Under the pieces are notes generated by a model that was not told the DNA's origin, did not search any database, and saw only the letters and a program-made list of their open reading frames with translations. A program made the position numbers and the translations under genes. DNA of 64,000 nt from Nocardia mangyaensis (lineage in GTDB: Bacteria > Actinomycetota > Actinomycetes > Mycobacteriales > Mycobacteriaceae): positions 5,456,001 to 5,520,000 of the forward strand of contig NZ_CP018082.1 of assembly GCF_001886715.1 (NCBI RefSeq). The letters are read 5' to 3'. Shown here one piece after another: positions 15,952-30,943 of this stretch; the first letter of the stretch is position 1, and the number at the start of each line of letters is the position of its first letter.

Positions 15952-17553
15952 ATGAGGCTCCGCACCCGGCCGCTGTTCGCTCTCGGGGCCGCGGTCGCGC
16001 TGGCCGCCGCGCTGGCCTCGTGCTCCGCACCCGCCAGCGGACCCACCGATTCCCTCGTCCTCGCCGACGCTTTCGAGCTGGGCGGCTACAACCCGATCGC
16101 GGGGTACGGCGCGGCCGGTGAGGCCAAGATCTACGACGGACTGCTGCGGCTCACCGGCGGCACCGGCCTGCCGGACTTCGCGCCCGCCCTGGCGACCGAG
16201 CTGCCGACAGCCGATGCCGATGCCACCGTGTGGACCGTGCCGCTGCGCGCGGGCGTGCGGTTCAGCGATGGCTCCGACTTCGACGCCGAGGATGTCGTCG
16301 CCACCTACCGGGCCATCCTGGATCCCGCGTCGGCCTCGGAGGTGCGCTCCTCGTTCTCGATGATCGAGCGGATCGAGGCGGTGGACCCGACCTCGGTCCG
16401 GTTCACCCTGCGCCACCCCTATGCCGCGTTCCCCACCAAGCTGCTCATCGGCGTCGTGCCCTCGGAGGCCGTCGCCACCCCGGGCCCAGCGACCGAGTCC
16501 TCGCTCAACTCCGCGCCGATCGGCACCGGCCCCTATCGGCTCACCACGCTGGAACCGACCAGGGCGATCTTCGAGGCGAACGAGGGATACTGGAACGGCG
16601 CACCCGAGGTCAAGCGACTCACCCTGCTCTACGTCCCCGACGACAACACCCGCGCGCAGCGGCTGGCCGGCGGCGAGCTCGACGGCACGACGCTGCCGCC
16701 ACTGCTGGCCGCAACCTTCGCCGATCGCGCGTCGATGTCGTTGCACGCCAACACCTCCGCGGACTGGCGCGGTGTCTCGATGCCCGCGGGCGACCCGGTG
16801 GCCGGTGACCCGGCGATCCGGCTGGCCCTCAATCACGCGGTGGATCGTCAGTCGATGATCGACAACATTCTGGGCGGCTACGGTCGCCCCGCCTACACGC
16901 CGTTCGCCGAGGTCTACGGCGAATCCCACGATCCGGCAGTCACTTTCGCCTTCGACCGGACCCGTGCCGAACACATACTCGACGAGGCAGGCTGGCGCGC
17001 GAGTGCCGACGGTGTCCGCGCGAAAGACGGTGTGCGAGCACGATTCACCCTCATGTACAACTCCGCCGACACCCTCCGGCGCGATCTCGCCCTGGCGTTC
17101 GCCTCCGATGCCCGCCGGGTGGGCGTCGAGGTCGACCTGGAGGCGCTGTCGTGGGACCGGATCGAACCGCGGATCGACCGGGCGGGCATCCTGCTCGGCG
17201 GCGGCAGCGAGCCCTACGATCCCGACACCCAGGCCTACAACACCCTGCATTCACCGTCGGCCGACCCGAGCGCGAGCAGTCCCTACGACAACGCGAGCCG
17301 CCACAGCGACCCGACGATCGACGACCAGCTCGAACTGGCACGGCGCAATGTCGATCCCGCCGTGCGGGCGAGCGCGTATCGGGCGGTGCAGAGCCGCTAC
17401 GCCACCGCGCCGAGCCATGTGTTCCTGGTGCACCTCGATCACACCTATGTGGTGAAGGACTCGTCGTGGACCATGTCGGGGCCGATCCTCGAGCCGCACA
17501 GCCACGGCGTCACCTGGGGGCCGTGGTGGTCACTGCAGACCTGGACCCGGTAG
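15952..17553 (+). CDS. ABC transporter substrate-binding lipoprotein (SBP_bac_5, Opp/Nik type)
   Basis: A 533-residue lipoprotein that captures a peptide, nickel or metallophore-type ligand outside the membrane. A lipobox Leu-Ala-Ser-Cys places the lipidated Cys at residue 24. The mature domain shows the family pattern: DAFELGGYNP near the start, AKIYDGLLRL, FSDGSDFDAEDVVATY, GTGPYRL, and late YNTLHSPSADP. It heads a five-gene operon (two permeases, two ATPases) whose genes overlap by one to eight bases. The start is ATG 15952 with a modest AGGGA-type site. Ligand cannot be read from sequence; nickel or opine-type metallophores are possible given the metal-sensor-like palindrome upstream. Confidence 0.88.
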   Translation: MRLRTRPLFALGAAVALAAALASCSAPASGPTDSLVLADAFELGGYNPIAGYGAAGEAKIYDGLLRLTGGTGLPDFAPALATELPTADADATVWTVPLRAGVRFSDGSDFDAEDVVATYRAILDPASASEVRSSFSMIERIEAVDPTSVRFTLRHPYAAFPTKLLIGVVPSEAVATPGPATESSLNSAPIGTGPYRLTTLEPTRAIFEANEGYWNGAPEVKRLTLLYVPDDNTRAQRLAGGELDGTTLPPLLAATFADRASMSLHANTSADWRGVSMPAGDPVAGDPAIRLALNHAVDRQSMIDNILGGYGRPAYTPFAEVYGESHDPAVTFAFDRTRAEHILDEAGWRASADGVRAKDGVRARFTLMYNSADTLRRDLALAFASDARRVGVEVDLEALSWDRIEPRIDRAGILLGGGSEPYDPDTQAYNTLHSPSADPSASSPYDNASRHSDPTIDDQLELARRNVDPAVRASAYRAVQSRYATAPSHVFLVHLDHTYVVKDSSWTMSGPILEPHSHGVTWGPWWSLQTWTR

Positions 17554-18545
17554 TGCCGCGCGGTCGGCTGCGCGACCGCGGCATCGGGTCGATGGCCGGC
17601 TGGCGGCTGGTGACGCTGGTTCCGGTGCTCGGCCTGGTCTCGGCGGGCCTGTTCGCCGCCGCGGCGGTCTCACCGTTCGACCCGCTCGTCGGCTATCTCG
17701 GCGCACGCTACGAGACGACCAGCGCCGCCGATCGCGCGCTGCTCACCGAGCAACTCGATCTCGACGCCGCCTGGTATCAGCTCTATGGCCGATGGATCAC
17801 CGACGTGTTCACCGGCGATCTCGGTGTCTCGCGCAGCTTCGCCCAACCGGTGAGTGAGCTGCTCGCCCAGCGTATTCCGTGGACGATGCTGCTGGTGGTG
17901 GCCGGGATGACGATCGCCGTCGTGCTCGCGCTGAGCGTGGGCGTGTGGGCGGGGATGCACCGCGGCGGACTCGTGGACCGGGCCGTCGCCGCCACCTGCG
18001 TGGCGCTGCAGGGACTGCCGCCGTTCGTGGTGTCGCTCGCGGCGATCGGGCTGTTCGCGGTCGGGCTCGGCTGGCTGCCACCCGCCGGCCTCACCGATGC
18101 CGGGGCCGATGCGAGCCTCGGGCAGGTGGCGCGCCACCTCATCCTGCCCGCGGGCGCGCTGGCGGTCTCCCAGGTGCCGTGGTTGCTGCTGGCGGTGCGG
18201 GAATCGGTCTCGGCCCAGCGCGGTGAGGATTTCGTGGTCGGCGCGGTCACCCGTGGCATCGATGCCCCCACGATCACGCGCCGACACATCCTGCCGGCCT
18301 CGCTGGCCCCCTTCGTGACGATCCTCGGCGTCCGGTTGCCGGAGATCGTGGTCGGGGCGGTGCTGGTGGAGGAGATCTTCTCCTGGCCCGGGATCGCCGG
18401 GGCGTTCGTGCAGTCGGCCAAGGACCTCGACATGGCCCTGCTGGCCATCCTGACCGTCGGTACGACCTGCGCGGTGATGCTCGGTTCGCTGCTCGCCGAT
18501 GTCGCGGTGGCACTGCTGGATCCACGGGTGCGGGCCGATGGCTGA
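17553..18545 (+). CDS. ABC permease, OppB/NikB type
   Basis: A 330-residue inner-membrane permease of the dipeptide/nickel family. It has an N-terminal helix, then a long periplasmic loop (about residues 40-100) and the five-helix BPD_transp_1 core, including ARHLILPAGALAVSQVPW and the EAA-loop equivalent RRHILPASLAPFVTILGVRLPE. I chose GTG 17553 because it overlaps the upstream TAG (TAGTG); ATG 17592, 13 codons in, is an alternative. Its 3' end overlaps the second permease by eight bases. It should pair with that protein to form the channel. Confidence 0.87.
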   Translation: MPRGRLRDRGIGSMAGWRLVTLVPVLGLVSAGLFAAAAVSPFDPLVGYLGARYETTSAADRALLTEQLDLDAAWYQLYGRWITDVFTGDLGVSRSFAQPVSELLAQRIPWTMLLVVAGMTIAVVLALSVGVWAGMHRGGLVDRAVAATCVALQGLPPFVVSLAAIGLFAVGLGWLPPAGLTDAGADASLGQVARHLILPAGALAVSQVPWLLLAVRESVSAQRGEDFVVGAVTRGIDAPTITRRHILPASLAPFVTILGVRLPEIVVGAVLVEEIFSWPGIAGAFVQSAKDLDMALLAILTVGTTCAVMLGSLLADVAVALLDPRVRADG

Positions 18546-19359
18546 GCGGCGGTTGTCTCTCGCGCTGTCGGTGCTGATCGCGGTGCTCGCGTACGCGGTG
18601 CTCGTGCCGTGGTTCGGCGGCGCCGACGATCGGCTGACCGATTTCGCCGACGCACGCCAGGCGCCGTCGGGGCAGTGGTGGTTCGGCACCGACTCGGCGG
18701 GGCGCTCGCTGTTCGTGCGGATCGCGGCGGCGTTGCGGACCTCGCTGGTGGTGGCCGCGTGCGCCGCGGCCTTGTCGACGGTGCTCGGCGTGCTGGTGGG
18801 CGCGGTGTCGGCGCTGGCGGGCGGGTGGGTCGACCGGGTGCTGATGCGGATCGCCGACACCGCGAACGCGCTGCCGCATCTGCTGCTCGGCATCGTCATC
18901 GTGGCGCTGTTCCGGGGGAACGTGCTGGCGGTGGTGTTGTCGATCGGGCTCACCCACTGGGTGCAGGTCGCCCGGATCGTGCGCGCGGAAAGTCTGAGTC
19001 TGTGTGAGCGCGACTATGTTTCGGCCGCGGTGCTGGCCGGAGCGAGCCGCACGCACTTGTTCAGCCGGCATCTGCTGCCCGCGGTCGCCCCGCAGGCGTT
19101 GATCGCCGTGGTTCTGCTCCTGCCGCACGCGATCTGGCACGAGTCGACACTGTCGTTCCTCGGCTTCGGGCTGCCGCCCCACGAGCCCAGCCTCGGCACC
19201 CTGCTGGCGGAGGCCCGCACCTCGCTGCTGCTCGGCGGATGGTGGACGCTGGTCTTCCCCGCCGGGTTCCTGGTGGTGACCACCGTGGCGGTGGCCGTCG
19301 CCGGATCGTCGCTGCGGCGGCGGCTGCTGCCACCGAAACCCTCGAGGATGCCGCGATGA
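18538..19359 (+). CDS. ABC permease, OppC/NikC type
   Basis: A 273-residue partner permease. The N-terminal helix is followed by WWFGTDSAGRSLFVRI, the diagnostic OppC/NikC motif for the segment before the core, then five helices with the EAA loop AAVLAGASRTHLFSRHLLPA and a C-terminal helix. ATG 18538 overlaps the preceding stop (ATGGCTGA). Its TGA overlaps the ATG of the ATPase gene (ATGA). The five-gene order SBP-OppB-OppC-OppD-OppF is the standard one for this transporter family. Confidence 0.87.
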   Translation: MAERRLSLALSVLIAVLAYAVLVPWFGGADDRLTDFADARQAPSGQWWFGTDSAGRSLFVRIAAALRTSLVVAACAAALSTVLGVLVGAVSALAGGWVDRVLMRIADTANALPHLLLGIVIVALFRGNVLAVVLSIGLTHWVQVARIVRAESLSLCERDYVSAAVLAGASRTHLFSRHLLPAVAPQALIAVVLLLPHAIWHESTLSFLGFGLPPHEPSLGTLLAEARTSLLLGGWWTLVFPAGFLVVTTVAVAVAGSSLRRRLLPPKPSRMPR

Positions 19360-20237
19360 CGGGCCTGACCATCGACGCACTGACCGTCCGGATCCCGCTG
19401 CGCGGCGGTGCCGTAGTGCACGCGGCGACCGAGGTCTCCCTCGAGCTCGCGGCGGGCACGGTGACCGCGCTCGTCGGCGAATCCGGTTGCGGCAAGTCGA
19501 TCGTGGCGAGCACGGTGCTCGGCGTGCTGCCGGGCGAGGCCGTCACCACCGGGTCGGTGCGGCTCTCACTCGGTGATCGGACGATCGACGTGCTGGCCGG
19601 TGTCGAACCGTACCGGGGCCGCCACATCGCGCTCGTACCGCAGTCGCCGAGTACGCATTTCACGCCGGTCCGCACCATCGGCTCCCAATTGGCCGAGACG
19701 ATCGACGCGCTCGGCACCACACACACTCCCGGCGATCTCGTCGCGCGTGCCGGTCTCTCGGTGTCCGCGCTCGAGCTGTACCCGCACGAACTCTCCGGTG
19801 GAATGGCCCAGCGTGCGGCGGTGGCGGCCGCGCTGGCCGGCGATCCCGAGGTGATCGTCGCCGACGAACCGACCTCCGGGCTCGACCGCGACCGCACCGA
19901 CCAGGTCGGAAAGCTCCTGCGGACGTGCGCTGACGCCGGGGCGGCGGTGCTGCTGATCACGCACGACCTGGGCCACCTGCTGCGCGCCGACCTCGCCGAC
20001 ACCGTCGCGATCATGTACGCCTCGCGGCTGATGGAAGTGGGACCGGGGACCGAGGTACTGGCCGACCCGTGGCACGACTACACCCGCGATCTGCTCTCGG
20101 CGCTGCCCGAGCGTGGTCTGCGCCCACTCCCCCACCCACCGCGCGCCCTGACCGATCTGTCCGAGATCTGCCCCTATGCGGGCGGACCCACCACGCTGAT
20201 CCGCAAGGAACAGCGCATGATTCGAGTGAGGTCCTGA
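19356..20237 (+). CDS. ABC ATP-binding protein, OppD/NikD type
   Basis: A 293-residue ATPase subunit. Walker A GESGCGKSI is near residue 37, followed by Q-loop VPQSPSTHFTPV, signature LSGGMAQR, Walker B VIVADEPTSGLD and H-loop THDLGH. A short C-terminal oligopeptide-transporter tail includes a single Cys in EICPYAGG; the usual Cys cluster of OppD/DppD [4Fe-4S]-type tails is incomplete. ATG 19356 overlaps the upstream TGA. The final Lys-Glu-Gln-Arg-rich tail ends in TGATG, overlapping the second ATPase gene. Confidence 0.88.
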   Translation: MTGLTIDALTVRIPLRGGAVVHAATEVSLELAAGTVTALVGESGCGKSIVASTVLGVLPGEAVTTGSVRLSLGDRTIDVLAGVEPYRGRHIALVPQSPSTHFTPVRTIGSQLAETIDALGTTHTPGDLVARAGLSVSALELYPHELSGGMAQRAAVAAALAGDPEVIVADEPTSGLDRDRTDQVGKLLRTCADAGAAVLLITHDLGHLLRADLADTVAIMYASRLMEVGPGTEVLADPWHDYTRDLLSALPERGLRPLPHPPRALTDLSEICPYAGGPTTLIRKEQRMIRVRS

Positions 20238-20881
20238 TGCTCGTCGCCGAGGCACTCACCGTCGGCCACCGACCCGATCGGCCCATCGTGCGGGACGTCG
20301 ATCTGCGGGTCGCCCCCGGCGAGATCATCGGCGTCACCGGCGAATCCGGTTCGGGGAAGACAACTCTCGCCCGCACGCTCGCCGGACTGCTCACCCCGAC
20401 CGCCGGCCGGGTCACCGTCGACGGGAAGTCACCGCGTCAGGCGCGCGGCGAGATCGCCATGGTCTTCCAATCCCCCCGCACCGCGACGAATCCCCAGTTC
20501 ACCCTCGCCCAGATCATCGCCGAACCCGCCCGCATCCGCCGCACCCCCACCCCCGACCTCACCGCCCTGGCCGGCACCGTCGGCCTCACCCCCGACCTCC
20601 TCACCCGCCGCCCACACGCCCTCAGCGACGGCCAGCTCCAACGCGCCTGCCTGGCCCGAGCCCTGGCCCAGAACCCCCGCTACCTGATCCTCGACGAACC
20701 CACCGCCATGCTCGACGCCGCCACCACCGCCACCATCATCCACCTCGTCGCATCCCGAGCCGCACAGCACACCGGCGTCCTGCTCATCAGCCACGACACC
20801 CCCCTGCTGGAGGTGGCCTGCACCCGCATCGCCACCGTCCACGCGGGCACCCTGACCCCGCACGAGGTATCTCCGCGATGA
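20237..20881 (+). CDS. ABC ATP-binding protein, OppF/NikE type (short form)
   Basis: A compact 214-residue ATPase with Walker A GESGSGKTT (about residues 37-45), Q-loop FQSPRTATNPQFT, an atypical signature LSDGQLQR in place of LSGGQ, Walker B LILDEPTAMLD and H-loop SHDTPL. The C-terminal oligopeptide domain of typical OppF is absent. ATG 20237 overlaps the preceding stop. Codons in the second half are strongly biased to C-ending triplets. It completes the importer. A 37-codon frame overlapping its stop (ATG 20878) runs into the next gene's antisense and is probably not real. Confidence 0.87.
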   Translation: MLVAEALTVGHRPDRPIVRDVDLRVAPGEIIGVTGESGSGKTTLARTLAGLLTPTAGRVTVDGKSPRQARGEIAMVFQSPRTATNPQFTLAQIIAEPARIRRTPTPDLTALAGTVGLTPDLLTRRPHALSDGQLQRACLARALAQNPRYLILDEPTAMLDAATTATIIHLVASRAAQHTGVLLISHDTPLLEVACTRIATVHAGTLTPHEVSPR

Positions 20882-20954: not shown

Positions 20955-22166
20955 TCAGCCCGCGAGGCGGATTCGCAGGGTTTCGTAGGTGGGGATGAAA
21001 ACCTTGCGGCGGTAGCGGCGTTCGACGATCTGCCAGGGGCGACCGTCGGCGGTGAGGGCGGCCAGCAGGGCGGTGAGTTCGGAGTGGACGAGCTGGGCAC
21101 CCAGGCACAGGTGGCGGCCACCGCCGAACCAGAGTTGGCGGGTCTCGGGGACGTAGTCGCGGTGGATGGCGAAGTCGCCGACGGCGTTGTTGATCGTCCA
21201 GGTGAGGATCTTGACGTGTTCGCCCGCGCGCAGATCACGGTCGGCGACGCGCACATCGGCGATGACCGAGCGACCGACCAGGTAGGCGGGACTGGTCACC
21301 CGCAGGGTCTCGCGCACCGCGTCGGGCAGCCGGTCCGGCGCGGCGAGCAGGGCGCGGTGCTCACCGGTGTCGTGCATGATCGCGACCATCCTGGTCATGG
21401 CGCTGGCGAGAGTGTCGGTGCCCGCCACCGCCATCAGGATGGCCAGCCCGGCCGCGTGCTCGACCTCGAGACCGAGTTCCCGGCAGCGACCGAGCGTGGT
21501 GTCGGGATCGGCGCGCGCGTAAGCGGTGGGGACATTGACGGCGAGCCGGGTGGCCAGCTCGCGGGCGCGCGCCACCGCCACCGGGTCGAGGGTGGTTGAC
21601 GCCATGGTGCCGAATCCGAGGTTGACGAGCTCCTCGACGTGATGGAACAGCCGCAGGAACAGCGTGTCCTGATCGTCGGTGTGGTCGCCGCCGATGGCCG
21701 CGGCGATGTCCTCGGGACGCATGCCGACCAGGTCGGACACGCTGCGCCCGACCAGGATCTGGGCGCGGGCGGCGATGTCGACGGTCTCGCCCGCCGCGAG
21801 CCGTTCGCGCAGGTCACGCAGGTCGGGACCGATGACGCGCTCGACCAGGGCGTCGGTGTGGGCGAGGGTGAACAGGTCACGCACCTTGGTCCGCAATTCG
21901 GTGTGGCCCGGACCTTCGAACAGGTCTTCGACCCAGTCGCCGATCACCTGCGCCCACCAGTGCCCGGCCGCGCCCTCGGAGACGATGCTGAAGTGCGTGC
22001 TGTCGTTGTAGATCTGACGCGCGACCAGCGGATCCGCCACGAACCAGCCGAGTGTGGGGACCTTGCGGATCGGCCGCGCGACCCGCCCCAGCAGCAGTAA
22101 TCCGGGCAACCACGGTTGACCTGCGGCGAGTAAGGTGAGTTCATGGCGTCGGGCAGCACTCCACAC
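20955..22166 (-). CDS. Cytochrome P450
   Basis: A 403-residue soluble-type P450 monooxygenase. The heme motif FGGGRHLCLG places the axial Cys at about residue 354; the K-helix ExxR is RETLRVTSP and the I-helix oxygen-activation motif is AVAGTDTLASAM. I chose GTG 22166 because a -10-like TAGATT (22175-22180) with TTCACT 17 bases further upstream predicts a transcript starting at or just before this codon; the open frame to ATG 22250 would leave almost no room for the divergent promoter. It is divergent from, and probably functionally linked to, the ketosynthase operon. Substrate unknown; an alkyl chain oxidation is plausible. Confidence 0.85.
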   Translation of the reverse strand: MWSAARRHELTLLAAGQPWLPGLLLLGRVARPIRKVPTLGWFVADPLVARQIYNDSTHFSIVSEGAAGHWWAQVIGDWVEDLFEGPGHTELRTKVRDLFTLAHTDALVERVIGPDLRDLRERLAAGETVDIAARAQILVGRSVSDLVGMRPEDIAAAIGGDHTDDQDTLFLRLFHHVEELVNLGFGTMASTTLDPVAVARARELATRLAVNVPTAYARADPDTTLGRCRELGLEVEHAAGLAILMAVAGTDTLASAMTRMVAIMHDTGEHRALLAAPDRLPDAVRETLRVTSPAYLVGRSVIADVRVADRDLRAGEHVKILTWTINNAVGDFAIHRDYVPETRQLWFGGGRHLCLGAQLVHSELTALLAALTADGRPWQIVERRYRRKVFIPTYETLRIRLAG

Positions 22167-22174
22167 CCCGGCAC

Positions 22175-22203
22175 AATCTAGTTGACCTGGCCCGATTAGT
22201 GAA
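22175..22203 (-). promoter_or_regulatory. Predicted promoter giving a leaderless P450 transcript
   Basis: On the minus strand TTCACT (22198-22203) and TAGATT (22175-22180) are separated by 17 bases; eight bases separate the -10 from the GTG start of the P450. The spacing fits a leaderless mRNA. Confidence 0.5.
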
Positions 22204-22276
22204 GGTCTGCGACTAGGATCGACGGGATGCGCGGATGGCGGACTGAGCATCCCGCGATATCCGGAAGTGACGAAGT

Positions 22277-23302
22277 ATGAGATCGACTATCGAAGCCGTC
22301 GGGGCCTACCTGCCCAGCCGCGAGGTGACCACGGCCGACCTGCTGGGTCAGCTGGCGGTGGACACACCGCTGGATCTGGAGAAGGTCAGCGGGGTGCGGG
22401 CGCGGCGAGTACGCGGCGTCGACGAGGACTCGTTCACCCTCGCGCTGGCCGCCGCCAGGAGCGCGCTGGCCAACTCCCGCTACACCGCCGCCGACCTGGA
22501 TGTGATCATCTCCTGCTCGATCACCCGCACCCGCGGCGCGGATTTCTGTCTGGAGCCCTCGTTCGCGCTGATGCTGCGCACCACGCTCGGCGCCACCCGA
22601 GCCATCCACTTCGACGTCTCCAATGCCTGCGCGGGCATGATGACCGGAGTCCTGCTGCTGGATCGGATGATCCGTGCCGGCGCGGTGCGCCGCGGCCTGG
22701 TGGTCTCGGGCGAGTGCATCACGCCGATCTCCGACACCGCGGTGCGCGAGATCTCGCAGAAGTACGACCCGCAGTTCGCCTCGCTGACCGTCGGTGACGC
22801 GGGCGCCGCGGTCGTGCTCGACGGCACCGACGGGCCCGGCCTCGACTATGTGGAACTCAACACCAGCGCGGCCTTCGCGAAGCTGTGCCTCGGCATGCCG
22901 AGCGACCAGGGACCGGGCGTGGCGCTCTACACCGACAACCGGGCCATGCACAACGAGTCGCGCTATCTGCTGTGGACCTCGCGCCAGCAGGAATTCCTCA
23001 CCGGCCGCGGTTCCCGCTTCGCCGACGAGGGCTACGACTACCTCATCCACCACCAATTCAGTGGCCCCGCGGTGGAATTGATCGACAAGATCGCCGAGCG
23101 GGAATTCGACGCTCCGATGCCGCCCAAGCTGGCGGTGTTGGACAGGTACGGCAACACCGCCTCCACCTCGCACTTCGTGGTGCTGCACGACGCGCTCTCG
23201 CGCGGACTGCTCGCGCCGGGGTCGCGCGTACTGCTGGTTCCGGCGGCCTCCGGGGTGGTCGCCGGGTTCTTGTCGGTGACAATCGGCGATCTTCGGGTAT
23301 AG
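22277..23302 (+). CDS. OleA-like thiolase-fold 3-oxoacyl synthase (KAS III family), catalytic subunit
   Basis: A 341-residue ketosynthase with a complete Cys-His-Asn triad: Cys118 in DVSNACAGMM, His259 in LIHHQF and Asn293 in YGNTAST. The segment CLEPSFAL (Glu93) resembles the glutamate motif (LEPS) that distinguishes OleA, which condenses two fatty acyl groups head-to-head, from FabH. It heads a tightly packed operon with a second thiolase-fold gene 6 bases downstream, a small membrane protein, a glycosyltransferase and an OleC-like adenylating enzyme. I infer formation of a long-chain beta-keto acid. Start ATG 22277 has a GGAAG site. Exact chain lengths and whether it works as a heterodimer are unknown. 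Confidence 0.83.
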   Translation: MRSTIEAVGAYLPSREVTTADLLGQLAVDTPLDLEKVSGVRARRVRGVDEDSFTLALAAARSALANSRYTAADLDVIISCSITRTRGADFCLEPSFALMLRTTLGATRAIHFDVSNACAGMMTGVLLLDRMIRAGAVRRGLVVSGECITPISDTAVREISQKYDPQFASLTVGDAGAAVVLDGTDGPGLDYVELNTSAAFAKLCLGMPSDQGPGVALYTDNRAMHNESRYLLWTSRQQEFLTGRGSRFADEGYDYLIHHQFSGPAVELIDKIAEREFDAPMPPKLAVLDRYGNTASTSHFVVLHDALSRGLLAPGSRVLLVPAASGVVAGFLSVTIGDLRV

Positions 23303-23308
23303 GACAGT

Positions 23309-24175
23309 ATGGGAATCATCATTTCTTCGGCCGTCACGCACACCGGCGGAGTCAGCTCGGTGGGACAGGCGGCCGATGCCGCGCGTGAGGCGCTGACCGG
23401 TGCGGGCTGTCCGCCCGAGCAGGTCGACGCCCTGATCAACGTCGGTGTATACCGCGACGCGAACCTGGTCGAACCGGCCGTGGCCGCGCTCATCCAGCAG
23501 GCCGCCGGGATCGGCCTCGACTATCGGCCCGGCGATGTGCCGTGCCTGTCGTTCGACCTGATGAACGGGGCGTGTGGACTGGTGAACGCCGTCGGCGTCG
23601 CCGCCTCGTTGCTGGCCGATCTGCCCGCCGGGCACGTGGTCGTGGTCTCCGGTGACGCGCATCCGTCGATGCGGGCCGATGCGGAGTTCGCGTTCGAACC
23701 TGTCGGCGCGGCGCTGGTCCTGGAGAACTCCGCCGAGGCGGCCGGATTCGGTGGCGTGCACGTGAGCGCCGGTGACACACTGCCCGATCCACAGGGTTAC
23801 GTCACCCTGTCGGAGATGGGCGCCGAGGGTCGGTCCGCGCTGACGGTCGAACTCGCCACCAGCACCGCCGAACTGGTCGAGCACGCCGCCACCGCGGGCC
23901 GGGAGGCCCTGGCGGCCGACCACATCGACGCCACGCGTGCGGTACTGGTGTGTGGCAAGCCGACCGAGGACTTCGCCACCGAACTGGCCGCCGAACTCGG
24001 CATCGCCGTCTTCGTCACCGACGAATTCACCGGCGACGCACACACTTCCGCACTCACCGCGGCCTATGTCGCGGCCCGCGATGCCGGCCTGGCCGATCGC
24101 CCCCTGCTGTTCGTCGCCGCCGACGGAGGACCCACCGCCGCCGCGGTGACCTATCGCGGGCCGGGTGTGGCATGA
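23309..24175 (+). CDS. OleA-like partner ketosynthase with degenerate active site
   Basis: A 288-residue thiolase-fold protein. It keeps a Cys (Cys89 in LMNGACGLVNA) and an OleA-type glutamate segment VEPAVAAL (Glu55), but the region that should carry the catalytic His reads CGKPTEDF and the GNTAS loop reads GDAHTSA, so His and Asn of the triad are lost or moved. It is shorter than the upstream synthase by about 50 residues. Its placement six bases after the intact synthase suggests a non-identical dimer partner, as described for NltA/NltB in nocardiolactone formation. Start ATG 23309; its TGA overlaps the next ATG. Confidence 0.75.
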   Translation: MGIIISSAVTHTGGVSSVGQAADAAREALTGAGCPPEQVDALINVGVYRDANLVEPAVAALIQQAAGIGLDYRPGDVPCLSFDLMNGACGLVNAVGVAASLLADLPAGHVVVVSGDAHPSMRADAEFAFEPVGAALVLENSAEAAGFGGVHVSAGDTLPDPQGYVTLSEMGAEGRSALTVELATSTAELVEHAATAGREALAADHIDATRAVLVCGKPTEDFATELAAELGIAVFVTDEFTGDAHTSALTAAYVAARDAGLADRPLLFVAADGGPTAAAVTYRGPGVA

Positions 24176-24570
24176 CCGGGGCGCACCGACCGAGGCGCGC
24201 CACACCCGCGCGCGAGGGCAGCGCGCGGGAGGCGTGGGCAGCCCGGATTCAGCACGGCGAGCAGCCGCGACACCGCGCGATCGGCACCACACCCCCCGCG
24301 CCGGGCCGATCGACCGTCCTGGCCCTGCGCTCGATTCCGGTGCTGGGCTGGGCTTTTTTGCTGCTCGGTGTCGTGCGTCCGTTCCGGTCGAAGCCGCTGC
24401 GCGCGATCTTCTGGATCGACGCGTTCCTGAGCATCGTGGTGCACGCGGCGCAGATTCCGGTCGCCCGCCGCGAGGCCGCCAAGCGCGGGATCGCACCCGG
24501 GCGGACCGCGGTGATGACCATGGTGTTCGGGGCGACCTGGTGGAAGACACTGGGTGAGGACGAGCGGTGA
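24172..24570 (+). CDS. Small membrane-associated protein in the ketosynthase operon
   Basis: Unrecognised 132-residue protein. The first ~45 residues are basic, Pro/Arg-rich and probably disordered; then two hydrophobic segments (SIPVLGWAFLLLGVV and AIFWIDAFLSIVVHAAQI) flank a short basic linker, and the C-terminus contains TAVMTMVFGATWWKTLGEDER. ATG 24172 overlaps the ketosynthase stop (ATGA) and its own TGA overlaps a GTG (GTGA). Topology suggests two membrane helices with a cytosolic N-terminus. A role as membrane anchor or helper for the lipid pathway is only inference from position. Confidence 0.7.
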   Translation: MTGAHRPRRATPAREGSAREAWAARIQHGEQPRHRAIGTTPPAPGRSTVLALRSIPVLGWAFLLLGVVRPFRSKPLRAIFWIDAFLSIVVHAAQIPVARREAAKRGIAPGRTAVMTMVFGATWWKTLGEDER

Positions 24571-24798
24571 ATCCGGTTCTGCCCGACGCCGGGTCGGGGA
24601 CGGCACGGAGCGGCCGGGCCGACACCGCGGCGCGTGGCGATCGTCGGTCACGCACACCCCGCACCTCCGAAGCACGGCACCCACTGGCAACAGCAGGTCG
24701 GCGGGCACATCGACCGCGGCGCGCTCGGCCGGCGCCATGACGCGGCGACCTTCCGCGCGGTCGGCCGGGTGCACTCGCGGGGCGTGGTGACGCGATGA
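24567..24798 (+). pseudogene. Frameshifted or two-part small gene, His-rich C-terminal half
   Basis: Between the membrane protein and the glycosyltransferase, coding-type codon use (G/C third bases) is in the frame of GTG 24567 up to about 24632, then switches to the frame of GTG 24634, which runs to a TGA at 24796-24798. The first part overlaps the upstream stop (GTGA) and the second overlaps the next ATG (ATGA), exactly as the real genes here do. The second part (54 codons) encodes HAHPAPPKHGTHWQQQ with several His. Either one gene of about 76 codons has a +1 frameshift near 24632 (or a sequencing error), or a 54-codon gene is intact. No family recognised. Confidence 0.4.
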
Positions 24799-25550
24799 CC
24801 AATGCACTGTGGGTGGTGATTCCCGCCTTCGACGAGGAGCACGGCATCGGTGCGACACTGGCTGCCCTTGCCGCACAACGGGATACCGACTTCGCCGTCG
24901 TCGTGGTCGACAACAACTCGTCGGACCGCACCGTCGAGGTCGTCCGTACCTTCGCTGCCGAGCATCCGGTGCCGCCGATCGCGGTGATCACCGAGCAGCA
25001 GAAGGGCACCGGGGCCGCCGCCGACACCGGTATGCGACACGCCATCACCCAGGGCGCCACGTGGGTGGCGCGCACCGACGCGGACTGCCTGCCCGCGCCG
25101 GAATGGACGCAGCGGATCAAGGCGGGCTTCGACTCGGGGCTGCGGCTGGTGAGCGGGCAGTTGATTCCGCGGACCGACGAAGGGGTTTCGTGGCTCGACC
25201 GCACCATCATCCGGGTCGCATTGGAGGTGGCGTCGATCTTCGGGAAGGTGCGCTCGGGCAATCGGGGCCCGAAGTATCTGGGACCCTATGTGATGACGCC
25301 GGGCTGCAATATGGCGATCACGGCCGAGCTCTATCTCGCCGCAGGGGGTTTCCCGCGCACGGCCATCGAGGATCTGCACGAGGACCGTGCGCTGGTCAAC
25401 GCGGTGCGCACGATCACCACCGACTACGGGTTGCGCAGGGATGTGCGCGTATACGGGTCGAATCGCCGGGTCCGCGCCTGGGGCATTCGTAAGACACTGG
25501 CCTGGTATGCCGATCACCGGTACCGACCCGAGGTGGTCGATATCCGGTGA
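24795..25550 (+). CDS. Family 2 glycosyltransferase (GT-A fold)
   Basis: A 251-residue cytosolic GT2 enzyme. The N-terminal VVIPAFDEEHGI and VVVVDNNSSDRT are the nucleotide-binding segments, TDADC (within VARTDADCLP) is the metal-binding DxD, and AIEDLHEDRAL supplies the acidic catalytic region. No transmembrane helices are visible, unlike dolichol-type GT2 enzymes. ATG 24795 overlaps an upstream TGA. Its place between ketosynthases and the adenylating enzyme suggests it glycosylates the lipid product, though sugar and acceptor are unknown. Downstream to the ligase lies a 180-base gap. Confidence 0.82.
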   Translation: MTNALWVVIPAFDEEHGIGATLAALAAQRDTDFAVVVVDNNSSDRTVEVVRTFAAEHPVPPIAVITEQQKGTGAAADTGMRHAITQGATWVARTDADCLPAPEWTQRIKAGFDSGLRLVSGQLIPRTDEGVSWLDRTIIRVALEVASIFGKVRSGNRGPKYLGPYVMTPGCNMAITAELYLAAGGFPRTAIEDLHEDRALVNAVRTITTDYGLRRDVRVYGSNRRVRAWGIRKTLAWYADHRYRPEVVDIR

Positions 25551-25730
25551 GTTCGCCACTACCGTTGCCACTGACGCCGACCGCCTTGCCCAGGTCAGTA
25601 CCGAGGGTGTCCATCGAGCCACCCGGATGATCGCGGCCACCATCACCACCATCCCGCCGATGGCGATTCGTGACTGTCGTGGCGGTGACCACACAGTCGG
25701 TCGGATCGCCGACTTCCGAGGAGCCAGCCG
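25551..25730 (+). other. Gap with a possible gene remnant before the ligase
   Basis: No convincing gene. One frame shows coding-like composition and ends at a TGA (25732-25734) that overlaps the ligase ATG, with a possible short start at ATG 25627 (35 codons, RIADFRGASR at the end). It may be a remnant of a deleted gene or a leader peptide. Confidence 0.25.
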
Positions 25731-27254
25731 ATGAGCCCCGATTTCCTGGATCGCCTCGCCGCACAGGCCGACCGTATCCCGGATGCCTCGGCCCTCGGCA
25801 CGGTCGGCAAGCGCGCGCTCACCTATCGCGAACTGGTCGACACGATCGGCCGGGTCGCGCACAACCTCGCCCAGGCCGGATTACGGCCGGGCGATCGGAT
25901 GCTGTTCTCCATCCGGCCGAGTGTGTCCTCGGTGACCTTGATCTTCGGGGCGATCGCGGCGGGCGCGACGATCGTCTTCGTCGATCCCGGAGTCGGCCCC
26001 GAGTTGTTCGCCAAGCGGATCGGATTGGTCGAACCGGCTTGGGCGGCAACAGAATCCTTGCTCTACACCGTGAGCGGGCCCCTGGCAGCCTTCGGTCGCA
26101 GGCGCGGGTTGGCGCTGCCCCGGTTCGGCGCGCTCGATGTGCGCCACATCCACAGTGGCGTGTGGATGCCGGGCACACCGTTCGGTTCGACTCCGTTGCG
26201 CCGGATCACCGGCGACGCCTCCAGGACCGACCTGGCACCGGCCGATCCGGATGCCGCGGCGCTGATCGTGTTCACCTCCGGGACCACCGACGAGCCGAAA
26301 GCCGTTGTACACACGCGTGCTTCGCTGAGCGCCGGCCTCACCGCGATGGGCGGCCGGACCAGCCTGGCCCCCGGCGCCTTCCTGCACACCGAGCAACTCA
26401 TGATGGGCTTACCAGCGCTGATGACCGGCGCGCGCTGGGCGATGCCGCGCTATCCGCGCTTCGGCACCCACATCGACCCCGTGCGATTCACCCGCAATCT
26501 GCGCAGTGCCACCCACGCCTTCTACACACCCGCCGATCTGGCCCTCGCCCTCGACGCGCTCGAATCCGGCGCGATCACGCCCCCGCCACATCTGCGCCAG
26601 GTCGCGCTGGGTGGCGCGCCGGTCACCACCGCCCTCCTGCGCCGAGCCCGTCAATCGTTGCCCGACACCGAGTTCCTCGCCATCTACGGAATGACCGAGA
26701 TCCTGCCGGTGGCCGTCGCGACCGACACCGCCAAGCTCGCCCACGACGGTGACCTGCTCGGCGCACCCGTGCGCGGGGTCGTGGCCCGCGTCGCCGACGA
26801 CGGCGAACTCGTCCTGGCCGGCCCGAACCTGTGCCGCGGCTACCTCGGCGCCGAACCCCTCACCGAGGTCGCCACCGGCGACCTGGCCCGCTGGGACGAC
26901 GGCCAGTTGGTCCTCACCGGCCGCAAGAAGGACATGATGATCCGCGGCAAGACCAACATCTACCCCGGCCTCTACGAACCGGTGATCACCGCCATCGACG
27001 GCGTCCGCGAGGCGATCATGGTCGGCATCCCCGACGAGATCGGCGACGAAGCCATCGTCCTCGCCGTAGTAGCCGCTCCCGACGCCGGCGACATCGCCGC
27101 CCGCCTGCGCACCAGCCTCCCCCACCTCATCGACACCACCGCCCTCCCCGACGAGATCGTCGTCCTCGACCACATCCCGGTCACCGGCCGCACCAACAAA
27201 CCCGACCGCAACGCCTTGCGCGAACTGCTCGCCCAGCGCCGACGGGCTTCGTAG
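25731..27254 (+). CDS. Adenylate-forming enzyme, OleC/beta-lactone-synthetase-like AMP-binding protein
   Basis: A 507-residue ANL-superfamily enzyme. Motifs in order: P-loop VFTSGTTDEPKAV, MGLPALMTGARW, YGMTEILPVAVAT, GDLARWDDG and GRKKDMMIRGKTNIYPGLYEP with the C-terminal catalytic Lys (GRTNKPDR). The YGMTEILPVA segment resembles OleC proteins (YGxTEALPVA), which close beta-hydroxy acids into beta-lactones, rather than ordinary acyl-CoA ligases. ATG 25731 overlaps a small frame's TGA. No OleD reductase (short-chain dehydrogenase) is encoded in the window, so an OleC reaction would need one from elsewhere; a plain fatty acyl-AMP ligase is the alternative. Confidence 0.8.
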   Translation: MSPDFLDRLAAQADRIPDASALGTVGKRALTYRELVDTIGRVAHNLAQAGLRPGDRMLFSIRPSVSSVTLIFGAIAAGATIVFVDPGVGPELFAKRIGLVEPAWAATESLLYTVSGPLAAFGRRRGLALPRFGALDVRHIHSGVWMPGTPFGSTPLRRITGDASRTDLAPADPDAAALIVFTSGTTDEPKAVVHTRASLSAGLTAMGGRTSLAPGAFLHTEQLMMGLPALMTGARWAMPRYPRFGTHIDPVRFTRNLRSATHAFYTPADLALALDALESGAITPPPHLRQVALGGAPVTTALLRRARQSLPDTEFLAIYGMTEILPVAVATDTAKLAHDGDLLGAPVRGVVARVADDGELVLAGPNLCRGYLGAEPLTEVATGDLARWDDGQLVLTGRKKDMMIRGKTNIYPGLYEPVITAIDGVREAIMVGIPDEIGDEAIVLAVVAAPDAGDIAARLRTSLPHLIDTTALPDEIVVLDHIPVTGRTNKPDRNALRELLAQRRRAS

Positions 27255-27294: not shown

Positions 27295-27546
27295 ATGAAG
27301 CAGATCGCGCAACGCGACCTTCGCAACGACAGCGGAAGAGTGCTCGCCGCGGTCGAAGCGGGCGAGAGCTTCATCATCACCCGCAACGGCAATCCCGTGG
27401 CCAAACTGGAGCCGCTCGTCCGCCGGACCTTCGTGCCCGTGGCCGAACTCGCGCGGACCAGCGCACGGCTCCCGCATGTCGATTACGCCCAGTGGCGGGC
27501 CGATCTGGATGCCATGATCGACCAGGAAATGCCCGACCGTGAGTGA
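27295..27546 (+). CDS. Type II antitoxin, Phd/YefM (VapB) family
   Basis: An 83-residue antitoxin. The N-terminal MKQIAQRDLRNDSGRVL and FIITRNGNPVAKLEPL are typical of the Phd/YefM DNA-binding domain; the C-terminal ~35 residues (DYAQWRADLDAMIDQEM) form the toxin-neutralising tail. It overlaps the toxin gene by eight bases, as usual for vapBC pairs. There is no ribosome binding site, and a -10-like TACACT lies seven bases before the ATG, so translation is probably leaderless. It should repress its own promoter at the palindrome just upstream. Confidence 0.88.
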   Translation: MKQIAQRDLRNDSGRVLAAVEAGESFIITRNGNPVAKLEPLVRRTFVPVAELARTSARLPHVDYAQWRADLDAMIDQEMPDRE

Positions 27547-27952
27547 TTCCGCCGTGCCGCTGTACATCCTCCTGGACACGTCGGTTCTGATCGACTACGC
27601 CGAGATACACGCGAGTCTGCCTGACGACGCCGATGCCGCGATCAGCGCCGTGAGCCTCGCCGAACTCGCCGCCGGGATCCACGCAACGAAGGACCCGGTA
27701 CGGCAGGCGCAGCGTCAACTTCAGTTCCAGTGGGTGGTTCGATCGTTCGATCCGCTCGCTTTCGATGCCGAGACAGCGCACGTGTATGGCTCGCTGGCCC
27801 TGCTGGTCGAACAGGTCGGTCGAAAGCCGCGCGGTCGCGTGGCCAACCTGCAGATCGCGGCGACCGCCGTCCAACACGCGCTGCCGCTCTACACCCGCAA
27901 TCCGGACGACTTCAAGGGGCTGGGTCCGCTACTCGACGTCGTGTCCGTGTAA
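27539..27952 (+). CDS. PIN-domain toxin (VapC family) with an Asn at a conserved acidic position
   Basis: A 137-residue PIN-domain protein; VapC toxins cleave tRNA or rRNA using a cluster of acidic residues. Asp13 (LLDTSVLIDY) and Glu42 (SLAELAAGI) are in place, as is the later NPDDF. The segment VANLQIAATA carries Asn103 where family members normally have Asp (DLxIAATA), which could weaken or abolish nuclease activity. Start is GTG 27539, eight bases inside the antitoxin gene. The gene is otherwise full length. Whether the toxin is active needs testing. Confidence 0.87.
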   Translation: MSDSAVPLYILLDTSVLIDYAEIHASLPDDADAAISAVSLAELAAGIHATKDPVRQAQRQLQFQWVVRSFDPLAFDAETAHVYGSLALLVEQVGRKPRGRVANLQIAATAVQHALPLYTRNPDDFKGLGPLLDVVSV

Positions 27953-27967
27953 GCGAGGGCGTGCACG

Positions 27968-29281
27968 TCAGTGCCGCGTGGTCACGGGATGCGAGATTCC
28001 GCGCGCCAGGGGTGCGACGGTGTGGTCGGCCAGGGTTTCGATGGTGGCGTGCTCGAGCACGGTGTCGACGTAGCAGAAGGTGATCGACAGGGTGGCGTCG
28101 AGGGTGGCCACGGCGACTGTCAGGGCGCTGGCGCAGGGGTTGGTCCCTGCGACTGTGAGGGCCGAGATATGGAGGGGCTCTGGGGTTTCGGGCTGAGTGA
28201 GGCGGCCGAGGTTGCTCATGGTGACATTCCAGGGGGCGCGGCGGTCGATGAGTTCGATGGTGCGCCTGCCGGATTCGAGGGTGCGGGGGCAGCCGTAGCG
28301 GATCGCGGCCAGAGCGGAGAGATCGGCGCCGCGGGTCAAGCGCTGGGAGAGTTGCCCTTTCGCGGTTCGGGCAGCATCCCAGAGTGACTTTTCGGGTCCG
28401 TAGGGGACGAAAGTGGGGACAACGGCGGTGAACATGCCGGGTTCGTCGTCGTCCGGAGCGGGGTGCAGTCGCGAGCGTAGGTCCACCGGTATGCCGATAC
28501 CGGCGACACCGGAGCGCCGCGGGCGGGCGAGGTCGCCGAGGGCACCCGCCAGTGCGGCGGCGAGGGCGGCGTTGACGGTGACGCCTTCCTGCTGGCAGCG
28601 GGCGCGCAGGGCGGCGAGCTGCGCGCCCTCGATGGTGCGAATCACTGTGCGGGTGCGGCGAATCGCAAGCGGTGGCAGGACGCCGGGGAGTTTGGTGGCG
28701 CGTCGGATGACGGCGGTGAGCTGCCCGGCCAGGTTGGCGCGCAGGCAGCGCAACAGCCCGGTGTGCGCGGCCGGGATCAGATCGTCGGGAGCGGGGATCG
28801 GTGGGCGCGAGGTCGCCGGAGGCTCTTCGCCGAAGGCACAGGCGAGAATTCGCCAGCCGAGCGCCGTCATCGAGCGGCCGTCGAGCAGCACGTGGGACAG
28901 CACCAGGATCAGATCGTGGTGTTCCTCGCAAGTGCCTGGGCGCCAAGCGAGATCGATGAGCCGGCCCGACGCTGTCGACAGGTCGATCGGGGTGGCGAGC
29001 TGGTCGTCGAAGACGGTGTGCCACTCGTCGGGGTCGGTGACGATGCGGTGTAGGACCGGGAGGTGTGGGTCGGCCGAGGTCACGAAGCTCGGACCGTCGG
29101 TCACCACCGCGCGCAGCAGCGGAAACTCCGCGACCACCGCATTCGCGGCCTCCTCCAACCGATACGCCCCGATCGGCCCGCGCACCCGCAACCGAACCAC
29201 ACAGTTGGCGGGCGAGAGCTGGTCGATGAGCCAGAACCACCGCTGCGCCGCCGACAGCGGTCGCACGACCTCTTCGCCCAT
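27968..29281 (-). CDS. PapA5-like / condensation-domain-type acyltransferase
   Basis: A 437-residue acyltransferase of the BAHD/condensation superfamily. The catalytic motif appears as LSHVLLDG with His130 and Asp134-Gly135; the preceding position, the first His of HHxxxDG, is Ser, as in PapA5-type polyketide-associated acyltransferases. NVTMSNLGRLT near the C-terminus resembles the second conserved region (NSNIG-like). PapA proteins transfer acyl chains onto alcohols of complex lipids. It lies 15 bases from the vapC stop on the opposite strand and its partner substrate is unknown; the OleA-like cluster nearby could supply one, but that is only position-based. Confidence 0.78.
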   Translation of the reverse strand: MGEEVVRPLSAAQRWFWLIDQLSPANCVVRLRVRGPIGAYRLEEAANAVVAEFPLLRAVVTDGPSFVTSADPHLPVLHRIVTDPDEWHTVFDDQLATPIDLSTASGRLIDLAWRPGTCEEHHDLILVLSHVLLDGRSMTALGWRILACAFGEEPPATSRPPIPAPDDLIPAAHTGLLRCLRANLAGQLTAVIRRATKLPGVLPPLAIRRTRTVIRTIEGAQLAALRARCQQEGVTVNAALAAALAGALGDLARPRRSGVAGIGIPVDLRSRLHPAPDDDEPGMFTAVVPTFVPYGPEKSLWDAARTAKGQLSQRLTRGADLSALAAIRYGCPRTLESGRRTIELIDRRAPWNVTMSNLGRLTQPETPEPLHISALTVAGTNPCASALTVAVATLDATLSITFCYVDTVLEHATIETLADHTVAPLARGISHPVTTRH

Positions 29282-29407
29282 GGCCCGAGCGTAGGGCCTG
29301 ACGACCCCGTCGCGTGCCCCAGTGACCGAGACGCCGGTCGCGCTCGCCACACTCCGTCGCGGGCAGAATCCTGTCCTCCGCATCTATCGTGCCGGTTACT
29401 ACGTGCG

Positions 29408-30331: not shown

Positions 30332-30943
30332 ATGACCGCGGCGCATCCGGACGAGACGCATCGCATCACTGCCGAGGAATTCCTGGCGGCCGAGCCCGAC
30401 TCGCTCAGTAGCACCTTCGGCGATTTCGAGGTCATTGACGGGCTCGTCGTGCGCGCGATGGCACAGAGTGAGGCACACAGTCGGGTGGTGCGTCGGCTGG
30501 CCGCTGCGCTCGAAGACGCACGCGACCCTGCCGGGCCTTGCTTGCGGATCGGGTCGGACGTGGCGGTGCGATTCGCGGATGCCGAGGAGGGATCTGCCGA
30601 CCGCCGACTCAATGTCAGGTACCCCGACATCTTCGTGCGCGACTGTGAACCGTACGACGTCAACACCGTTCGTGACCACATCACGCTGGTCGCCGAAGTC
30701 GCCTCACGGGAGACGGTCGACAGCGACACCGGGGTGAAATACCAGCTCTACGCTCGCGCGGGCATCGCGGTCTACCTGATCGTGCACTTCGACAAGAGCT
30801 GGGAACTCATCGACCGAATCGAGGAGTACCGGCTCGACTGGTCCGGGATGCGGTACATGCCGCACCGAGTGCATCGCACGGCGCTGGTTCTGGACACTCC
30901 GGTCACGTTGGCCGTCACCCTCGACTCACTGCATCGTCCATAA
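30332..30943 (+). CDS. Uma2 family (DUF820) PD-(D/E)XK-type endonuclease
   Basis: A 203-residue protein. Conserved elements include TAEEFLAAEPDS near the N-terminus, VIDGLVVRAM, RYPDIFVRDC (the PD-type acidic motif) and LVAEVASRETVDSD with KYQLYARAGI, characteristic of the Uma2 restriction-nuclease-like family common in actinomycetes and cyanobacteria. The function of these proteins is not established; they often occur near toxin-antitoxin genes. The ATG at 30332 is preceded by a GAGGAGCTGACC site. The gene sits in the toxin-antitoxin-rich island and may have arrived with it. Confidence 0.8.
   Translation: MTAAHPDETHRITAEEFLAAEPDSLSSTFGDFEVIDGLVVRAMAQSEAHSRVVRRLAAALEDARDPAGPCLRIGSDVAVRFADAEEGSADRRLNVRYPDIFVRDCEPYDVNTVRDHITLVAEVASRETVDSDTGVKYQLYARAGIAVYLIVHFDKSWELIDRIEEYRLDWSGMRYMPHRVHRTALVLDTPVTLAVTLDSLHRP

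Follow-up and report, generated by a model that had tools for sequence, protein, structure and literature searches.

What kind of lipid is made by a Nocardia gene cluster that combines two ketosynthase (KS) genes and an acyl-activating enzyme with a cytochrome P450 and a glycosyltransferase, and that holds no reductase of its own? The cluster lies in a 64,000-nucleotide stretch of the Nocardia mangyaensis genome (the window; positions 5,456,001-5,520,000 of one 7.31 Mb contig), and the initial annotation had described six genes here as an OleA/OleC-like lipid cluster. All six are open reading frames, and Pfam models fit the P450, the first ketosynthase (KS-A), the family 2 glycosyltransferase (GT2) and the AMP-binding enzyme. 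We give an even chance to the reading that the cluster makes a glycosylated, probably acylated, branched long-chain lipid by way of a heterodimer of KS-A with its neighbor KS-B, an OleD-type reductase acting in trans, an AMP-forming ligase, the P450, the GT2 and a PapA-type acyltransferase. Gene content, residues, phylogeny, co-conservation and repeated loss of OleD are what the sequences contribute to this reading. It corrects the attractive but misleading view of a cluster without OleD and with OleC, and offers testable claims instead: that an inactive-looking ketosynthase may supply the catalytic Glu, that a ligase clade can be mistaken for OleC, and that a reductase may be shared between clusters.

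The ketosynthase pair

KS-A (22277-23302, plus strand) is the predicted catalytic subunit of an LstA/OleA-like ketosynthase: it matches Pfam ACP_syn_III and the corresponding C-terminal domain, and carries a Cys118-His259-Asn293 triad. KS-B (23309-24175, plus strand), by prediction the LstB-like partner subunit, has neither the triad nor a Pfam match. Its Glu55 stands at the position of the OleA Glu, aligned with that of the Xanthomonas enzyme (residue 117 as counted along the alignment, a number that a paper title gives as well). For the lipstatin enzyme LstAB, the available part of the published account gives the triad of LstA as C128/H271/N305 and reports that a change of LstB Glu60 abolishes activity (PMC12141560). 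The features of this type recur in the window, namely adjacent KAS-III genes, a triad in only one of them and a counterpart of the essential Glu on the second subunit; the likeness is drawn by description (PMC12141560, PMC7064751). Unlike the window's cluster, the lipstatin system is described in the available parts of these sources with no mention of a GT2 (PMC12141560, PMC7064751). Since the Glu of KS-B is kept, aligns with that of OleA and corresponds to a residue that is essential in LstB, KS-B is best read, from its sequence, as a working partner subunit.

The nocardiolactone (nlt) cluster, too, reportedly has paired ketosynthases. One survey of the genus Nocardia, as far as its available part goes, counts 36 homologous clusters (PMC7413640). 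The genome studied here contains a KS-KS-OleC-OleD cluster (L036), called nlt-like by its gene content, and the window's cluster shares the paired ketosynthases with it. In contrast to such nlt-like clusters, the window's cluster has a ligase that is not OleC, lacks OleD, and adds a P450, a GT2 and a PapA gene.

The motifs of the KS-A triad and an EPSFA motif are kept in 32 of 32 copies. Every examined copy of KS-B is without the triad, NGAxG replaces the Cys site in 34 of 34, and the Glu-Pro-Ala (EPA) motif is kept in all 34 as well as in nine of nine KS-B sequences from nlt-like clusters. KS-A also has a Glu at the OleA-Glu position, and the three FabHs of the genome have none there. The initial annotation had called KS-B degenerate; a decaying pseudogene is ruled out by its intact frame, its dN/dS of 0.21 against locus L042 (0.11 for KS-A, and 0.11-0.28 across the seven genes compared), the missing triad in every copy and the Glu kept in 34 of 34.

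The paired ketosynthase of Lst/nlt type that had been proposed finds agreement in the phylogeny, where the nearest KS sequences outside the cluster come from nlt-like KS-KS-OleC-OleD clusters, one of them in the same genome. In a KS tree from a short search, for which the program warned of the long KS-B and FabH branches meeting, KS-A falls with its nlt-like counterparts (support 100) and KS-B likewise with its own (99); the single KS of a wider actinobacterial cluster family, discussed below, forms a group of its own (96) that excludes both. KS-A fails the FabH model TIGR00747 (103.8 bits, cut-off 292.1). The same genome has three further KAS-III genes that pass it, with 357.4, 305.4 and 334.1 bits, and these stand apart from KS-A and KS-B in the tree. 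Among sequences in the PDB, KS-B is closest to OleA (3fk5, then 4kti, OleA C143A). Its predicted structure has a KAS-III fold (pLDDT 83, pTM 0.85, from 22 sequences), and a fold search fails to separate the two families, placing FabH (TMq 0.76) above OleA (0.74, rank 42).

Several further ketosynthases were observed alongside. Four loci (L059, L060, L062 and L065) form another Nocardia KS-A/KS-B group in which the EP-motif Glu is Ala in three of four KS-A sequences and the KS-B Glu is kept in four of four, a natural contrast for asking which subunit's Glu matters. At about 1.3 Mb in the same genome, a 1740-residue protein (L037, 6886-12108, minus strand) has condensation, adenylation and carrier domains and, after them, KAS-III parts resembling KS-A (35%) and half of KS-B (33%); it adjoins a DH-ER-KR-carrier protein and is apparently, from its domain order, a fused LstAB-like pair on a nonribosomal peptide synthetase. 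Extra KS-A copies are more frequent in genomes with the GT2 cluster (37/38 vs 78/110; Fisher p 0.0002, uncorrected for relatedness), a comparison that was not relied upon; copies were counted by hand from match numbers, at a threshold that admits remoter fused ketosynthases.

The cluster in Nocardia and other actinobacteria

Around the pair, the GT2 (24795-25550, plus strand; PF00535, 81.8 bits) has a DAD motif and is the hallmark gene of its cluster family. The AMP-forming acyl ligase follows at 25731-27254 (plus strand; PF00501, 150.5 bits), and the P450 (20955-22250, minus strand; PF00067, 31.7 bits) is divergent from the KS operon. Between KS-B and the GT2 lies a gene for a small hydrophobic protein (24172-24570, plus strand) without Pfam match and with only a weak match to a DUF1145 model (21.8 bits, cut-off 118); its hydrophobic stretches suggest a membrane protein. 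A convergent PapA/condensation-type acyltransferase gene (27968-29383, minus strand; PF16911, 55.9 bits; PF00668, 43.6 bits) is probably a seventh member of the cluster, and its SHxxxDG motif occurs in 29 of 30 copies examined. Coupled starts, which had been claimed throughout, apply to KS-A and KS-B (6 bp apart) and to KS-B and the small gene (4 bp overlap), and not to the GT2, 224 bp behind the small gene, the ligase, 180 bp behind the GT2, or the divergent P450.

To follow the cluster through the genus, the GT2 alone served as probe (E 1e-60) in 148 Nocardia genomes drawn from a larger group, and was found in 38. The neighborhoods of all 38, the window's included, were compared by tblastn, a gene being called present where at least half of the query was covered and partial copies being excluded; one genome, G054, is represented by a 5.5 kb contig only. 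The ligase stands beside the GT2 in 38/38, the PapA gene and KS-B in 34/38 each, KS-A in 32/38, the P450 in 27/38, the small gene in 18/38 and OleD in 11/38. Of the four clusters without a PapA match, two (G019 and G054) lie at contig ends. The P450 heme motif FGGGRHLCLG and I-helix motif AGTDT are both present in 27 of 27 copies, the window's among them, and the next P450 match in the same genome has 32% identity. Pattern counts for ExxR in the P450 and Y...K in OleD were too loose and were not used.

In a phylum-wide sample of 396 genomes (E 1e-30), the GT2 matches were the window's own and two from another family of the class. Among named genomes, the GT2 retrieved 201 relatives, and the best 80 were retained, 31 of them from Nocardia and 49 from other actinobacteria, including Lentzea, Saccharothrix, Streptomyces, Kitasatospora, Actinoplanes, Micromonospora, Virgisporangium, Promicromonospora, Brevibacterium and others, with GT2 identities of 67-73% in Lentzea, Saccharothrix and S. 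chumphonensis. Among these 49 loci, tblastn (E 1e-3) finds a KS and the ligase in 48 each, OleD in 45 and the P450, often as a short match, in 43. The single locus without a ligase match and the four without OleD lie at contig ends, which does not apply to L141 (Brevibacterium), where no KS was found, or to three of the six loci without a P450. A divergent P450 of 43-47% identity stands beside the GT2 clusters in five of the eight loci L141-L148 and is the likely counterpart of the window's enzyme. No second KS was seen by tblastn in the 49 loci. Clustering beyond chance is borne out by the constant adjacency of ligase and GT2 in Nocardia genomes picked by the GT2 alone, and by the joint presence of the two in 48 of the 49 listed loci elsewhere, the miss lying at a contig end; the initial annotation's view of a lipid cluster, with the P450 and GT2 as co-conserved tailoring genes, also held.

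The homologous, side-by-side GT2 and ligase are what the window shares with this KS-GT2-ligase-P450-OleD cluster family; unlike that family, its ketosynthase is an LstAB-like pair rather than a single KS, and OleD is not in the cluster. Nlt-like clusters contain relatives of both ketosynthases, of the small gene and of the OleD that other Nocardia keep in this cluster; in L056, L058, L061 and L063 the small gene sits between OleC and OleD. Because these relatives lie in nlt-like clusters and those of the GT2 and ligase in the wider family, the Nocardia cluster has the look of a mosaic: in a GT2-ligase-P450 set, KS and OleD would have given way to a block that nlt-like clusters also have.

A region with KS, glycosyltransferase, AMP-binding enzyme, P450 and OleD has been described in Actinoplanes atraurantiacus, where the available part of the account predicts a glycosylated, hydroxylated beta-lactone and reports the OleA to be active in a p-nitrophenyl ester assay (PMC7064751, 2020). 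The window resembles it in having KAS-III, glycosyltransferase, AMP-binding enzyme and P450 genes, and differs, as far as the two can be compared by description, in its paired ketosynthases (one OleA there), its lost OleD (present there) and the PapA and small hydrophobic genes of Nocardia (PMC7064751). Other Actinoplanes loci, and Streptomyces loci, carry homologues of the window's GT2 and ligase. The general idea of such a gene set is therefore already in print, and the suggestion of a product not yet described was partly overtaken by the Actinoplanes prediction. In the open-licence literature, preprints lying outside this scope, no report surfaced of the glycosylated version with paired KS, of the separate ligase clade or of the OleD losses.

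The ligase and the missing reductase

The adenylating enzyme contains YGMTEILPVA, as the initial annotation noted, and on this point had been called OleC-like. OleC identity is ruled out by family models, tree and motifs. The olefin beta-lactone synthetase model NF045786 (cut-off 900) scores the window ligase at 86.3 bits, below the 151.5 bits that it has with a general ligase model, and the OleC-like enzyme of the second cluster at 523.5 bits, so that neither passes; with NF006754 ('fatty acid CoA ligase family protein', cut-off 478) the two score 142.8 and 607.5 bits. In a tree of 57 sequences, the window ligase and 18 relatives from the cluster family make one clade (support 100/99) and 14 enzymes picked by NF045786 a separate one (100/100), the sister position of the two having a support of 42/72. 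A C-terminal PVDxRHxxK, a motif of our own reading of the alignment, is present in 6/6 OleC sequences and 0/18 of the window's kind, which keep the ordinary acyl-ligase signature GRxxDM...N[IV]YPG (GRKKDM...NIYP and GRTNKPDR in the window). The ligase of Actinoplanes utahensis falls in the same clade, and the name 'OleC' for the A. atraurantiacus gene stands, in the available part of that source, in a figure colored by Pfam domain (PMC7064751). By its sequence, the ligase belongs to a clade of its own that domain content alone would call OleC.

No OleD was found by tblastn in the window's cluster, and the initial annotation was right that a reductase is missing there; as a design feature of the pathway, its absence is ruled out by the repeated loss on the tree and by the OleD of the genome's paralogous cluster. 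In the 11 Nocardia clusters with a reductase, it is encoded between the small gene and the GT2, a site occupied in the window by a gap of 224 bp (24571-24794) without OleD match. The best NCBIfam model for all 11 is OleD (NF042422), at 192-222 bits and in each case below the cut-off of 580, and these enzymes are sisters of the nlt-like OleD. On a tree of GT2 and ligase, no fewer than six changes are required to explain where OleD is present. The window's line belongs to a supported clade of 12 (98/98), eight of which keep OleD, and since its five nearest kin all do so (93/88), the loss in the window is most simply taken as its own. The distribution on the tree speaks for OleD absence as repeated, lineage-specific loss. 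Within the gap, tblastn shows no OleD remains (best E 0.17) and blastn matches at the near end are to the small gene common to relatives. A stretch of about 13-45 bp directly ahead of the GT2 start is similar to what precedes OleD in some relatives (best E 0.004), which is only a hint of a possible clean deletion.

The sole other OleD relative in the genome (E 1e-20) is that of L036, at 3.79 Mb and 1.7 Mb away. All 27 genomes without an in-cluster OleD have a relative elsewhere with at least 70% identity to the L036 OleD. An nlt-like OleD is also present in nine of the 11 genomes that keep the in-cluster gene (the copy of G146 is partial, with an internal stop), and the other two, G006 and G125, have no second OleD. 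An OleD relative thus occurs somewhere in each of the 38 genomes with the GT2 cluster.

A proposed pathway and its alternatives

The steps proposed follow from the families represented, LstAB-type, OleD-type, AMP-dependent, P450, GT2 and PapA-type, and their order is a guess. KS-A and KS-B would together make up a single LstAB-like heterodimeric ketosynthase, in which KS-A would load the first acyl chain on its triad and Glu55 of KS-B would act as the base that activates a second acyl-CoA, giving a 2-alkyl-3-keto acid by non-decarboxylative condensation. The OleD of the nlt-like cluster could reduce this acid in trans to the 2-alkyl-3-hydroxy acid. The ligase might activate a carboxylate, either that of the product acid or that of a fatty acid fed to the ketosynthase pair; the P450 would oxidize a chain, the GT2 would add a sugar and the PapA-type enzyme an acyl group. 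The product is likely a glycosylated, probably acylated, 2-alkyl-3-hydroxy (or keto) lipid; a beta-lactone is possible and not favored. OleA-type chemistry is likely here as in the OleABCD olefin pathway (PMC7064751), and relatives carry OleD; in contrast to OleABCD, the window has no OleC by model, tree or motif.

Some observations weigh against this pathway. Matches to PapA and the P450 are absent from some Nocardia clusters (PapA in 34 and P450 in 27 of the 38). Five of the 38 clusters have GT2 and ligase without an intact KS pair: both KS genes are absent in G011, G073 and G114, KS-A is absent in G049 and truncated in G028, while a sixth cluster without KS, that of G054, is cut by its contig. 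The best PDB sequence matches of KS-A are FabHs rather than OleA, and models of OleA-like enzymes and of FabH score it similarly, in no case reaching the cut-off (122.6 vs 113.8 and 103.8 bits). The nlt-like OleD is present in 36 of 38 genomes anyway, so the case for supply in trans is one of co-occurrence (Fisher p 0.078, uncorrected for relatedness). Finally, within the same literature scope, the cluster family has no product in print, only the 2020 prediction having surfaced. The initial annotation had staked its cluster idea on a ligase among ordinary acyl-CoA ligases, ketosynthases within FabH and absent co-conservation as the outcome that would undo it, and the result is split: the ligase lies outside the OleC clade, KS-A fails the FabH model and the genes are co-conserved.

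Closure of a beta-lactone by the AMP-forming enzyme in the manner of OleC, leading to a glycosylated or hydroxylated beta-lactone, is in our estimation unlikely. The same gene set has been so predicted for A. atraurantiacus in the available part of that account (PMC7064751), the KS pair and in-cluster OleD have their sister sequences in KS-KS-OleC-OleD clusters, and the ligase clade may be sister to OleC, at the support given above; set against this are the low scores of the ligase with both NF045786 and NF006754, its separate clade, the missing PVDxRHxxK and the ordinary ligase signature. The reductase bears on another improbable outcome, in which no OleD is used and the P450 and GT2 decorate a long-chain ketone formed from the 2-alkyl-3-keto acid by decarboxylation. 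That 27 of the 38 Nocardia clusters, the window's included, are without OleD agrees with it, and the six or more changes on the tree suggest that OleD is dispensable. Yet every one of the 38 genomes has an OleD relative somewhere, 45 of the 49 listed loci outside Nocardia have OleD, and the two genomes without a second OleD are among those that keep it in the cluster.

The ketosynthases raise a different question. KS may be dispensable, because five clusters without an intact pair still keep GT2 and ligase, and the core could be a P450-GT2-ligase-PapA set acting on a lipid from other enzymes (the second cluster, or ordinary fatty acids), with the KS pair as an optional Nocardia addition. All five KS-deficient genomes hold a KS-A paralogue, either distant from the cluster or on a different contig, which fits this account, and it overlaps the heterodimer pathway; the low dN/dS of KS-A and KS-B in the window and the KS found in 48 of the 49 listed non-Nocardia loci speak against it, and we consider it quite improbable. 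For the heterodimer pathway with OleD in trans, a tentative extension is that two paralogous LstAB-type clusters share intermediates: the nlt-like one might supply the reductase and, in some species, the ketosynthase, and the second might channel the branched hydroxy acid away from the beta-lactone and, by means of a functionally uncharacterized ligase clade, into glycosylated, acylated lipids of a new class. If true, these proposals would define a broad actinobacterial glycolipid family, in Nocardia, Lentzea, Streptomyces, Actinoplanes, Promicromonospora and others, and an instance of a biosynthetic step passed from one cluster to another.

The surroundings of the cluster hold further genes. 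An oligopeptide/nickel-type ABC transporter is encoded at 15952-20881 (plus strand; PF00496, PF00528, PF00005), and a gene for the binding protein of such a transporter was within the fetched stretch in 13 of the 38 genomes, the window's included; all 13 fall in the window's half of the cluster tree. The interval between ligase and PapA gene contains a Phd/YefM antitoxin and PIN toxin pair (27295-27952, plus strand; PF02604, PF01850), which is probably outside the pathway. The Phd/PIN pair is also present in L044, L098 and L099, with an antitoxin fragment in L043, none of them the window's nearest kin in the cluster tree. Two short frames without Pfam match, at 29322 and 29696, lie before a gene for a Uma2-family putative endonuclease at 30332-30943.

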